Shown: positions 9,053 through 14,863 of the stretch, piece after piece | Numbering within the stretch: the first letter of the stretch is position 1 | How the letters are laid out: each line of letters opens with the position of its first letter | From: Couchioplanes caeruleus | GTDB lineage: Bacteria; Actinomycetota; Actinomycetes; Mycobacteriales; Micromonosporaceae | NCBI RefSeq assembly: GCF_003751945.1 | Contig: NZ_RJKL01000001.1 | Coordinates: forward strand, 1,984,001-2,048,000 | Direction: 5' to 3' | DNA length: 64,000 nt | Translations under genes and position numbers: made by a program | Notes under the pieces: generated by a model | What the model saw: only the letters and a program-made list of their open reading frames with translations | The model's database searches: none | What the model was told of the DNA's origin: nothing

Positions 9053-9733
9053 TCATGGCGGTGAGAGCGGGGCGAGGGTGAGCAGGCCGCAGCCGTAGGC
9101 GCGGGCGTGGCCGATGCCGGTCATGAGCATGGCGCGGAACGGGCCGCCGTCCTCGATCGTCAGGACGCCGCCGAAGGTTGCCGTGGCCAGGGTGACGGGA
9201 CGTCGGCCCCGGCCGTGGGCGAAGGTGAGGGTCTGGCGGCGGTGTAGTGCCAGGTTGGGACGGCCGTCGCCCTGGGCGGCGATGGCGAAGCCGTTGCGCT
9301 GCTGCCTGTTCAGCAGCCATTGGATCTGGTGGTCGACAGTCACGTGACCGTATCGCTGCGTGTCGCCGCCCTGCGCGGGGCGGCCGTTGCGCACCGGGTT
9401 GGCCGTCAGGCGGAAGGCCCAACGCTGGCCGGGCTCGAGGGTGTCGAGGAAGGGCCGGTACGGCTTCGTGCGCCAGGTGTCGGCGGTCGGCCAGCCGGCC
9501 TGCTCGACCAGGTGGGTGAGGTCCGGTTTGCCGGGGCTCACCACGTAGAGCGTCACCCGGGTGTCGGTGCCGTGGTCGAGGCGCCAGAGGGTGCGGGCGT
9601 GGGGCTGGATCTGGTCCTGTGGGCGGGGGAAGCCGGCCAGGACCGCTGCGTGCATGACCTGCGGCGAACCGAGGAGCTTGCGGGCGTCGCGGCGGGCGGG
9701 GTTGAGGCGCAGGCGGGTCAGGAACATGTCCAT
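9053..9733 (-). CDS. cas6e: type I-E CRISPR-associated endoribonuclease Cas6e (CasE)
   Basis: 226 residues. Cas6e cuts pre-crRNA within each repeat and stays bound to the 3' hairpin as a Cascade subunit. The N terminus MFLTRLRLNP and the segment SPQVMHAAVLAGFP with a His at residue 28 match the catalytic-His region of the family. WRLDHGTDTRVTLYVVSPG, RAFRLTANPV-like (WAFRLTANPVRNG) and the C-terminal Gly-rich loop GIGHARAYGCGLLTLAPL complete the signature. ATG 9733 overlaps the end of cas5e by 16 bases, so it is the last gene of the Cascade operon. cas1 and cas2, which normally follow, are not found downstream. Confidence 0.93.
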   Translation of the reverse strand: MDMFLTRLRLNPARRDARKLLGSPQVMHAAVLAGFPRPQDQIQPHARTLWRLDHGTDTRVTLYVVSPGKPDLTHLVEQAGWPTADTWRTKPYRPFLDTLEPGQRWAFRLTANPVRNGRPAQGGDTQRYGHVTVDHQIQWLLNRQQRNGFAIAAQGDGRPNLALHRRQTLTFAHGRGRRPVTLATATFGGVLTIEDGGPFRAMLMTGIGHARAYGCGLLTLAPLSPP

Positions 9734-10431
9734 CCTTCGAGGACGTCCATCGGGTCGTGGCCGGGAGCCGGGTGGTGCGCGGGGTTCGGGATGTCGGTGT
9801 GCTCGCGGACCACCGAGCGCCAGGAATGCCTCCGGTGCCGGGGGTCGAAGCTGACGGCCTGGTCGGGGGCGGTCTCGGTCAGCGGGTCGCCGGACTCGGC
9901 GTCGCGCAGGATCTCCAGGCGTACGGCGGGGTGCCCGCGTTGCCTGCGCTGCTTCCACCCGGCGGCCTGCCAGGGCCACGTGGCGAGCCTTTCCCGGAGC
10001 ATGCCGTCGTGGACGCCGAGGCTGACCGGCCCCGCCGGCGGGCAGGAGCGGCGGCCGAGAAACAGCGGGAAATACGGCCGGGACAGTGCCTGCTGCAGGC
10101 TGTCGAGCAGGGCGGGCGGGCCACTCACCGCGGCGAGGAAGGCCGCGTCGGCAAGATAGTGACGGTAGGTCAGCGGCATGCTGGTGCGCCCGTCGAGGGT
10201 GCGGGCCACGTGGAAGTCGCGCAGGATCTCGCCGGGCTGGTCGATGCGGACCCCGAACCGCAGTGGGAGCAGCTCGGTGAGCGGGTCGGTGCGGCGCAGG
10301 CCACGTGCGGCGGCGAGCAGACCGATGACGCCGCTCTTGCTGGGGGCGACGTCGGTGTGGCGGTGCGCGAAGCGGCTGCGGGTCCCCCAGGCCTGCAACG
10401 GGCCGGCGAGCCGCAGGAGCAGGACGCTCAT
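9718..10431 (-). CDS. cas5e: type I-E Cascade subunit Cas5e (CasD)
   Basis: 237 residues, normal length. The start MSVLLLRLAGPLQAWGTRSR, then TDVAPSKSGVIGLLAAA, is the diagnostic Cas5e beginning. Further family features are LLPLRFGVRIDQPGEI, TYRHYLADAAFLAAVSG and LFLGRRSCPPAGPVSLGV. It binds the 5' handle of the crRNA at the foot of Cascade. ATG at 10431 overlaps the cas7e stop (ATGA), so the two are translationally coupled. No damage is visible. Confidence 0.93.
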   Translation of the reverse strand: MSVLLLRLAGPLQAWGTRSRFAHRHTDVAPSKSGVIGLLAAARGLRRTDPLTELLPLRFGVRIDQPGEILRDFHVARTLDGRTSMPLTYRHYLADAAFLAAVSGPPALLDSLQQALSRPYFPLFLGRRSCPPAGPVSLGVHDGMLRERLATWPWQAAGWKQRRQRGHPAVRLEILRDAESGDPLTETAPDQAVSFDPRHRRHSWRSVVREHTDIPNPAHHPAPGHDPMDVLEGWTCS

Positions 10432-11546
10432 CGTCCCGGGCCGATCCGCCCGGCGATCGTGGCGCCGACCGCCTCGGTCAGCTCGTTCAGGGGCAGGACG
10501 GTGCCGAGCGCGGCGAGGGCCCCGGTGCGGTCGCCGACATGCGTGATCCAGGTCGCGGCCGGCCTCTCCCCGTACGCATCGTGGACCTCGGCGGTGTAGG
10601 CGGCCAGTGTGCGTGCCGCCTGGGCGACGCGGCCCCGGGTGTCGTCGGCGCGGCCGACGGGTTCCTCGAAGGCGCCGACGAGGTTGATCGCGCGGGTGTC
10701 GCGCAGGTGCACCACGATCGCGTCGGGACGGGTGCCGTTGGCGAAGGTGTTGCGCTTGCCGGTGGGCATGCTCAACGCGTACGCCCGGAGGAACGCCTCC
10801 ACCGCCCGGCGGGTGGCGGCGGGATCGCCGAGGGTGTCGTGGAGGCGGTCGACGTCAATGGTCGCGTACCGGTAGAGGGTGGAGGAGTTGAACTCGACCG
10901 TGCCGATCATGCCGGCGCCGCTCTCCTGGAGGTCGTACTTGCGGTCGTCGACGGCGGTGAAGTAGTCGAACTCGTTCTCGACGTGGTGCACGCTGATGGC
11001 GTGGGCGACCTGGACGGCGGCGTCGACGTTGATGTCGCTGACGTCGGCGACCATGCGACCGAACATCGCGATGTCGATCGAGTGCGCGGTGTTCGCCGCC
11101 TCCTTGGCGGTCCTGGCGTCGATCGTGGTGTCGTCGTGGGCCGAGCGCACCGCCAGCTCGGCGAGCCGTTGCTGCTGGCGGTGGCTGAGGAAGAGGAGGT
11201 AGTCGGTCTCGGCCGGCTTGTCCTTCCTGGGCTCCTTCTTCAGCAGGCCGGCGGCCTTCAGTACGCTTACGGCGAGCGCGGCCGCCCGGCTGTCGAGTGC
11301 CGGGTCGAGACCGCTGATCCGGGCGGCGATCGCCTCCCCGACGCGTTTGGTCCGCTCCCCCAGATCGGCGTCGTCGAGATATTCCTCGAACGCCAGGCGT
11401 ACCGCGCGTTTCCAGGCCTGGCTGGAGACCCGCGCCCGGCGCACGCCGCCGTACACCGCCGTCTTCGGCGAGCCGGAGTCGTCCCGGTTGAGGTTGCTCG
11501 GCGGCACCGTCTGCAGAATGTGGACGTCGATGATGCTCCGGGTCAC
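10428..11546 (-). CDS. cas7e: type I-E Cascade backbone subunit Cas7e (CasC)
   Basis: 372 residues, normal for the family. IDVHILQTVPPSNLNRDDSG and PKTAVYGGVRRARVSSQAWK at the N terminus are the classic Cas7e motifs. SIDIAMFGRMVADV, HAISVHHVENEFDYFTAVDD, and AGMIGTVEFNSSTLYRYATI follow. Several copies line the crRNA to form the Cascade spine. The ATG overlaps the end of cse2 by four bases, and its own stop overlaps cas5e. Reading frame and motifs are intact. Confidence 0.95.
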   Translation of the reverse strand: MTRSIIDVHILQTVPPSNLNRDDSGSPKTAVYGGVRRARVSSQAWKRAVRLAFEEYLDDADLGERTKRVGEAIAARISGLDPALDSRAAALAVSVLKAAGLLKKEPRKDKPAETDYLLFLSHRQQQRLAELAVRSAHDDTTIDARTAKEAANTAHSIDIAMFGRMVADVSDINVDAAVQVAHAISVHHVENEFDYFTAVDDRKYDLQESGAGMIGTVEFNSSTLYRYATIDVDRLHDTLGDPAATRRAVEAFLRAYALSMPTGKRNTFANGTRPDAIVVHLRDTRAINLVGAFEEPVGRADDTRGRVAQAARTLAAYTAEVHDAYGERPAATWITHVGDRTGALAALGTVLPLNELTEAVGATIAGRIGPGR

Positions 11547-14516: not shown

Positions 14517-14654
14517 GCGGCCGTCGTCGTAGGCGCGCATCATCTCCGCCCGCCGTCGTGCCGGCAGTGTGGCCGAGAGGACCACCACCGGGACGCCGTA
14601 GGCGCCCAGCCATTCCAGCGCCCGGTCCAGGTATCGGCTCGTGTAGACCCGGCT
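14517..14654 (-). pseudogene. cas3: Cas3 helicase fragment (motif III region)
   Basis: The frame reads [20 protein letters not shown] and then [20 protein letters not shown]. The SAT motif and flanks are those of the superfamily 2 helicase domain of Cas3. Upstream (toward 14677) the sequence runs straight into CRISPR repeats, so the HD nuclease and helicase motifs I and II are gone. Downstream the frame runs through the 15-bp repeat instead of the rest of the helicase. Only about 46 residues of recognisable Cas3 survive here. Confidence 0.75.
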
Positions 14655-14676
14655 TCCCGGTTCGAAACCTGATGTC

Positions 14677-14863
14677 GTGCTCCCCGCGCACGCGAGGGTG
14701 ATCCCCACAGCGGGAAGAGGCCGTGCCGCGGGGGTGGTCCCGAATACGGCACACAGTTCCGGAGGCGGGGACTCTGCTCCCTACCCGCGTGGGGATGGTC
14801 CCCACTTCGCGGACGTCAGTTTCGCGGTGACGTCATGCTCCCCGCGCAGGCGGGGTGGTTCCG
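14677..14863 (+). CRISPR. degenerate type I-E CRISPR mini-array
   Basis: Repeat-like 29-base units start at 14677 (GTGCTCCCCGCGCACGCGAG), about 14713 (only the 3' half, GGGGGTGGTCCC, is good), 14774 (CTGCTCCCTACCCGCGTGGG) and 14835 (ATGCTCCCCGCGCAGGCGGG). The last three are spaced 61 bases, the normal 29-repeat plus 32-spacer period, giving two spacers (about 14742-14773 and 14803-14834). The first two are only 36 apart, so a spacer has been lost. No two repeats are identical, so the array is old and not being renewed. Confidence 0.65.

Follow-up and report, generated by a model that had tools for sequence, protein, structure and literature searches.

An antisense CreR-like element beside a type I-E Cascade operon without intact cas3, cas1 or arrays in Couchioplanes caeruleus, and its counterparts in Micromonosporaceae

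We analysed a 64,000-nucleotide (nt) stretch of the Couchioplanes caeruleus genome (contig NZ_RJKL01000001.1, positions 1,984,001 to 2,048,000 of the forward strand; hereafter the window), which holds the Cascade effector operon of a type I-E CRISPR (clustered regularly interspaced short palindromic repeats) system and, ahead of it, an antisense element resembling the guide genes known as CreR. The five Cascade genes lie on the minus strand at 9053-13815, and all of them exceed the NCBI curated bit-score cut-offs of the NCBIfam profiles by which the subunits were called, in agreement with the PADLOC models. These are cas8e (cse1; 12175..13815, likely start ATG at 13815; TIGR02547, 236.1 bits against a cut-off of 70.05; PDB 3wvo, E = 1.1e-139), cse2 (cas11e; 11543..12178, start taken from the translation; TIGR02548, 120.6 against 28.5), cas7e (cse4; 10428..11546; TIGR01869, 285.2 against 178.05; PDB 5u07, E = 2.1e-54), cas5e (9718..10431; TIGR01868, 151.7 against 68.95) and cas6e (cse3; 9053..9733; TIGR01907, 67.0 against 45.2), the extents being the likely ones judged from the translations. 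Neighbouring genes overlap at their ends, and all five frames are unbroken. The gene lengths fit those of 25 relatives, whose own values include two outliers, a cas5e frame that is short and a cas7e frame that is long. An earlier reading of the window, made from the sequence only, had described five full-length Cascade genes with overlapping ends, and this description stands. The histidine of the cas6e motif 'vmhaav' aligns with that of 'emhrtl' in Cse3 (PDB 2y8w), which we take to be the catalytic residue.

Between cas8e and the remnant of cas3 described below, in antisense orientation to the operon, lies a mini-CRISPR that the sequence-only reading had overlooked, formed by two degenerate repeats around a 20-nt pseudo-spacer. 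The first repeat, psiR1 (13872..13896, plus strand), has a perfect 6-bp stem-loop (13872-13888) followed by an 8-nt handle like that of a CRISPR RNA (crRNA), GTGTTCCA (13889-13896). On the same strand follow the pseudo-spacer, psiS (13897..13916), and the second repeat, psiR2 (13917..13947), with a perfect 6-bp stem at 13922-13939. The seed of psiS matches AAG-CTACTCCCTC at 13860-13872, just ahead of the element, with a mismatch at position 6. This proposed target (13860..13872, plus strand) is made up of the protospacer-adjacent motif (PAM) AAG at 13860-13862 and the seed protospacer at 13863-13872, and lies 45-57 nt upstream of the cas8e ATG. The seed plus PAM, AANCTACTNCCTC, has a single exact match in the 8.43-Mb genome, which is this site just upstream of cas8e. 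No Rfam match was obtained at 8000-16000. By its layout, the psiR1-psiS-psiR2 element resembles a CreR-like guide gene of the kind that autorepresses cas genes.

The same design recurs in related loci. A comparison set of 29 Micromonosporaceae loci (26 distinct), retrieved through cas7e or cas8e, was scanned with a strict rule that asks for a hairpin of six pairs, a handle, pairing at seed positions 1-5 and at least four of positions 7-11, and an AA PAM, all within 250 bp. The scan gave seven matches in as many loci, four of them new; every one lies antisense in the gap that separates cas3 from cas8e. Five first-order Markov resamplings gave none in 5.78 million strand-bases. Among the 26 loci, the gap between cas3 and cas8e is either long (166-261 bp, 11 loci) or short (27-51 bp, 15 loci). 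The element is present in all eleven long-gap loci, the window included; in the 15 short-gap loci the strict scan found no element, and three of these (L030, L041 and L055) were also inspected by eye.

Under a uniform scoring, the seed pairs with the target of its own locus at 10 of 10 positions in nine loci, and at 9 of 10 in the window and in L056. Mismatches at positions 1-14, summed over the ten loci other than the window, number 0, 0, 0, 0, 0, 7, 0, 0, 1, 0, 0, 9, 3 and 3, so that they cluster at positions 6 and 12, which Cascade leaves unpaired. In contrast, pairing a seed with the target of a wrong locus reaches a score of 9 in only 2 of 110 combinations, both from the similar pair L037/L038, and a shuffled psiS does so in 81 of 22,000 trials (12 of 2,000 for the window alone). 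The two closest relatives share the arrangement of the window, with different letters in both seed and target, and the psiR1 stem varies with compensation (for example, CCCACC/GGTGGG against CCCGAG/CTCGGG). Handle and following stem are 25-26 nt apart in the ten loci measured (L033 left out), against 37 nt in the arrays of a relative, where the period is 61 nt in 34 of 37 intervals. The pseudo-spacer is therefore 20-21 nt long, instead of the 32 nt of array spacers (29-nt repeat). All eleven long-gap loci have their target between cas8e and psiR1, and in three Micromonospora loci (L042, L044 and L052) the PAM is apparently placed at a -35 box of cas8e, as judged by eye.

This arrangement can be compared with two known kinds of crRNA-like guides. 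CreR is a cas-regulating crRNA-like RNA of types I-B, I-E and V-A, which represses the cas promoter and whose repression is relieved by competing array crRNAs (PMC12737573, PMC13131331); autorepression by CreR has been reported for type I-E (PMC13131331). The element in the window shares with CreR the mini-CRISPR beside the effector operon, the PAM and partial seed complementarity to the upstream region of the operon, and the lack of a visible toxin partner (PMC12737573, PMC13131331). Its degenerate repeats enclose a pseudo-spacer next to the cas operon, and a seed pairing at 9 of 10 positions, with AAG, lies upstream of cas8e, where the promoter itself was not located. The window differs from the described CreR loci in having no I-E nuclease, adaptation genes or arrays, so that CreR would remain as the sole guide whose target is recognised.

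The second kind is CreTA (PMC8501985, PMC9458426), which has the same psiR1-psiS-psiR2 order, seed positions 1-5 and 7-11 and need for Cascade only, and in which, as in the window, psiR1 is more diverged than psiR2. In CreA guides, pairing involves positions 1-5 and 7-11, and changes at 6 and 12 are tolerated; Cascade is required and cas1-cas4 are not (PMC8501985). An addiction module of the CreTA or CrePA type, in which the antisense RNA would restrain a toxin so that Cascade could not be lost, has this guide anatomy in its favour, and the dependence of CreTA on Cascade but not on cas1-cas4 would explain which genes have disappeared. We regard such a module as very unlikely. Unlike in CreTA, the target in the window lies upstream of cas8e; it abuts psiR1 on one side and is separated from the cas8e ATG by less than 50 nt on the other. 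Inspection by eye, which very short toxins could escape, revealed no frame for a toxin between cas8e, the target and psiR1, and the position of the target between cas8e and psiR1 is the same in all eleven loci.

The remainder of the type I-E system in the window is broken or missing. Two fragments on the minus strand match the 973-residue cas3 frame of the closest relative: remnant A (helicase; 14514..14648), which corresponds to residues 476-520 with 86.7% identity over 45 residues (PADLOC Cas3e, 2.8e-15), and remnant B (C-terminal; 14044..14337), which corresponds to residues 868-966 with 54.5% identity over 99 residues. They are separated by a scar that holds a 15-bp tandem repeat (14329..14477, repeat family D2), and the earlier statement that cas3 is left as two non-joined pieces is thus borne out. 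On the plus strand, degenerate repeats at 14677, 14774 and 14835 (14677..14863) resemble the eroded end of an array such as that upstream of cas3 in the closest relative, which lies on the same strand (L028, from 14603). The window has these three repeats plus psiR2 at about 13917 and no run of near-identical repeats. The repeat at about 13917 is no array debris; it belongs to the antisense element, which relatives have as well. A strict pattern of the I-E repeat had no match genome-wide, and a relaxed one had nine, two in the window and the others scattered, with no array elsewhere. Cas1 (PF01867) had no match in the whole two-contig, 8.43-Mb genome, by a search that was positive in 9 of 14 control genomes, so the reported absence of cas1 extends to the genome; that of cas2 holds for the 64-kb window, the only stretch searched, in which the Cas2 of a relative had no match. 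Of the parts of a complete type I-E system, the five Cascade genes are thus present, and an intact Cas3e, Cas1 and an array of near-identical repeats are not.

The only cas3 over cut-off in the genome is an intact gene of 760 residues on contig 2, a 124-kb, plasmid-like contig. It is a Cas3c, with 3.6e-175 against 2.8e-36 for the best Cas3e model, and belongs to a type I-C operon, cas3-cas5c-cas8c-cas7c (L007: 9928-17950), placed between arrays of 7 and 19 repeats that differ in sequence from the I-E repeats. The genome thus carries two type I effector modules and cas1 nowhere. An intact Cas3 on a plasmid might in principle act in trans with the I-E Cascade and keep the system active in immunity. 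This candidate is rejected by subtype: by model score the enzyme is a Cas3c with effector genes and repeats of its own, and no I-E array was found in the genome for it to work with, which makes active immunity by this route exceedingly improbable. The nuclease-free Cascade proposed earlier is therefore supported for subtype I-E, and the intact cas3 elsewhere that would have told against it is not at hand, since the gene on contig 2 is of another subtype. The spacers of the I-C arrays were searched for in the window and in 40 kb of the 124-kb contig 2 only, and had no match there, same-orientation matches within L007 being skipped as self. A resolvase-like frame adjoins the I-C locus (L007, 19156-19767, seen by eye).

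Within the genus, a cas8e match occurs in 10 of 67 genomes, that of the window included; in each of the other nine, cas3 and cas1 both exceed the cut-off, which makes the loss in C. caeruleus a derived one. The complete type I-E loci of two of these relatives (G062 and G018) have the Cascade gene order and the antisense element of the window, with cas8e 65% and 62% identical, and differ from it in having their own cas3, cas1, cas2 and large arrays. A broken cas3 is found in 2 of the 26 distinct loci, the window and L041 of Asanoa iriomotensis, and cas1 and cas2 are absent from the stretch compared in three, these two and L044. The genome of A. iriomotensis lacks cas1 and any cas3 over cut-off, and its Cascade without Cas3 and Cas1 arose independently. 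In this locus cas3 has an internal deletion, with features at 7042-7692 and 12550-14284, and relaxed repeat matches in the genome are limited to two short runs at the locus and two single ones. Micromonospora okii (L044) shows another state, with Cascade, an intact cas3 frame and a CreR-like element, cas1 nowhere in the genome and several large I-E arrays on other contigs, that is, memory without adaptation. A cas5e frame of only 148 residues was seen in one locus, probably L055 of Phytohabitans suffuscus, in which 24 invariant cas5e columns are broken and cas1 is split into two matches; L055 is either another decaying I-E locus or a case of sequencing errors.

The earlier reading had offered two explanations for the intact Cascade genes, selection or simply recent decay, and had suggested the ratio of nonsynonymous to synonymous substitution rates (dN/dS) as a check. 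This ratio is uninformative at the present divergence, and relative-rate, codon-position and invariant-column counts were used in its place. The Cascade proteins have 143 unique residues in the window against 131 in an intact relative (p = 0.51), and changes at the three codon positions number 127/125/251 and 126/101/276, respectively (p = 0.13). The window breaks 18 of 471 invariant Cascade columns, the third highest count of the 26 loci, most of the others having fewer; this falls within the range of its intact sisters L029 (30 of 483) and L028 (12 of 465), with L055 at 27 of 480, and provides no evidence for constraint. The Cas3 fragments are hardly relaxed either, with 3 unique residues against 1 in the relative for remnant A and 9 against 7 for remnant B; remnant A breaks 1 of 31 invariant columns, and remnant B 6 of 31 columns that are invariant in seven relatives. 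The loss of cas3, cas1-cas2 and the arrays thus looks recent, and rate tests of this kind cannot decide on retention. Cascade evolves no faster than in an intact relative, but the Cas3 fragments are not clearly relaxed either, so that the alternative of recent decay fits at least as well as selective retention.

Several observations weigh against a working guide in the window and, in part, against the comparison as a whole. The strict scan rule was shaped after the first three loci, and 4 of the 11 long-gap loci (L033, L037, L046 and L052) escaped it and were recognised by eye, their hairpin or handle being looser; three of these, L037, L046 and L052, have an imperfect psiR1 stem in the scoring. 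The PAMs of the long-gap loci are AAC, AAG or AAT, with GAC in L037 as the exception. In the window itself, the seed scores 9 of 10 with position 11 unpaired, and in an archaeal I-B assay a change at any one of the ten seed positions abolished function (PMC8501985). The distance from target to handle is 26 nt, against 44 and 43 nt in the two closest relatives, which leaves the CreR region 17-18 nt short of its length in the sister loci, and this shortening may have hit a promoter. A promoter and terminator scan of both strands at 13700-14100, limited to the sigma-70 consensus for promoters, found nothing.

These points make a plain dying relic a strong rival, in which the shortening has broken CreR as well and the Cascade genes are intact only for lack of time. 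The loss of position 11 together with the shortening, a seed at 9 of 10 where nine of the ten other loci keep all ten, the missing promoter-like site, the recency suggested by the Cas3 fragments and the six broken columns in remnant B all agree with it. On the other hand, the window keeps the psiR1 stem, the handle, the psiR2 stem, the PAM and nine seed pairs intact, and a complete system, L056, likewise pairs at only 9 of 10. We consider the relic a possible account, and less probable than a guide gene that has outlived the rest of its system.

We find a domesticated regulator, in which selection would keep the nuclease-free Cascade, CreR and perhaps unrecognised guides for the control of host genes, unlikely. 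It is consistent with five Cascade genes that are not significantly accelerated, and with the independent occurrence of Cascade genes without cas3 or cas1 in A. iriomotensis. However, the sole exact site for the CreR seed plus PAM is the operon itself, no distant I-E arrays were found genome-wide, and the Asanoa locus has a short gap, no CreR by strict scan or by eye, and short array remnants that were kept. Furthermore, retrieval of the loci relied on cas7e or cas8e, which makes the retention of Cascade partly an effect of ascertainment. The suggestion that Cascade is guided by remaining or distant crRNAs is accordingly retained in its first half, for one remaining CreR-like guide gene, and unsupported in its second. 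A shorter spacer is expected to give a smaller Cascade. A self-referential form of the same idea, in which the sole guide, with 20 nt of pseudo-spacer instead of the 32 nt in arrays, is directed at its own operon and a smaller, binding-only Cascade is kept as a regulator, strikes us as similarly doubtful.

The explanation that we favour, with middling confidence, is that a canonical type I-E system has decayed recently and that its effector genes and the CreR-like gene outlive the rest, perhaps in a self-silenced state. Deletions would have removed cas1-cas2, the greater part of cas3 and almost every array repeat, sparing the Cascade operon and the antisense CreR-like gene. If CreR is transcribed and assembled with Cascade, the complex would be expected to bind at the seed site next to AAG, shortly before cas8e, and so to repress the operon that encodes Cascade, as proposed here by analogy with the known CreR systems. 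With no array crRNA to relieve it by competition, and with no nuclease, Cascade-CreR would only occupy its own upstream region, and repression would be expected to be close to permanent. Any remaining immunity would be left to the plasmid-borne I-C effector.

A minimal type I-E variant beside STAND NTPases in Streptomyces (Shmakov et al. 2018, as recounted in PMC12231136) also consists of Cascade without cas3, cas1 and cas2. In contrast to that variant, the cas3 and array remnants of the window show decay from a canonical locus, and no STAND NTPase was found among the eight flanking frames, the only part of the 64 kb scanned for one with Pfam. Two of the eight frames had no family at all, and on these flanks a STAND-linked variant is unsupported. 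The locus forms part of a variable island (815-14900): in G062 and G031 the flanking genes (1-814 on one side, the polymerase-ABC side from 14903 on the other, with an exonuclease/DNA polymerase at 14903-16888) enclose DNA unmatched to the window. In G018 these flanking genes are only partly preserved, and the I-E loci of G062, G031 and G018 sit elsewhere. The window also encodes a secreted-looking protein (4414-5586) with about seven repeats of about 48 residues, rich in 'GDGNLWVNWWSG', for which Pfam gave only a weak propeller match.

CreR and type I-E systems without Cas3 are each already known; their combination and the set of CreR-like elements in Micromonosporaceae did not turn up in the literature searched. 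Among the papers listed on CreR, CreTA, RNA-based cas regulation, regulators lacking Cas3, I-E systems with STAND NTPases and the I-E systems of Actinoplanes, the titles and abstract openings describe neither the present locus nor CreRs of this family. The disarmed Cascade of C. caeruleus is now tied to a concrete guide and target, which makes the proposal that it may be a DNA-binding complex experimentally addressable. Together with that of A. iriomotensis, the locus offers natural material on the fate of a CRISPR effector after the loss of nuclease and memory. For the family as a whole, eleven seed and target pairs, whose letters differ between loci yet match within each, are evolutionary evidence for working CreR-like guides across the type I-E systems of Micromonosporaceae.

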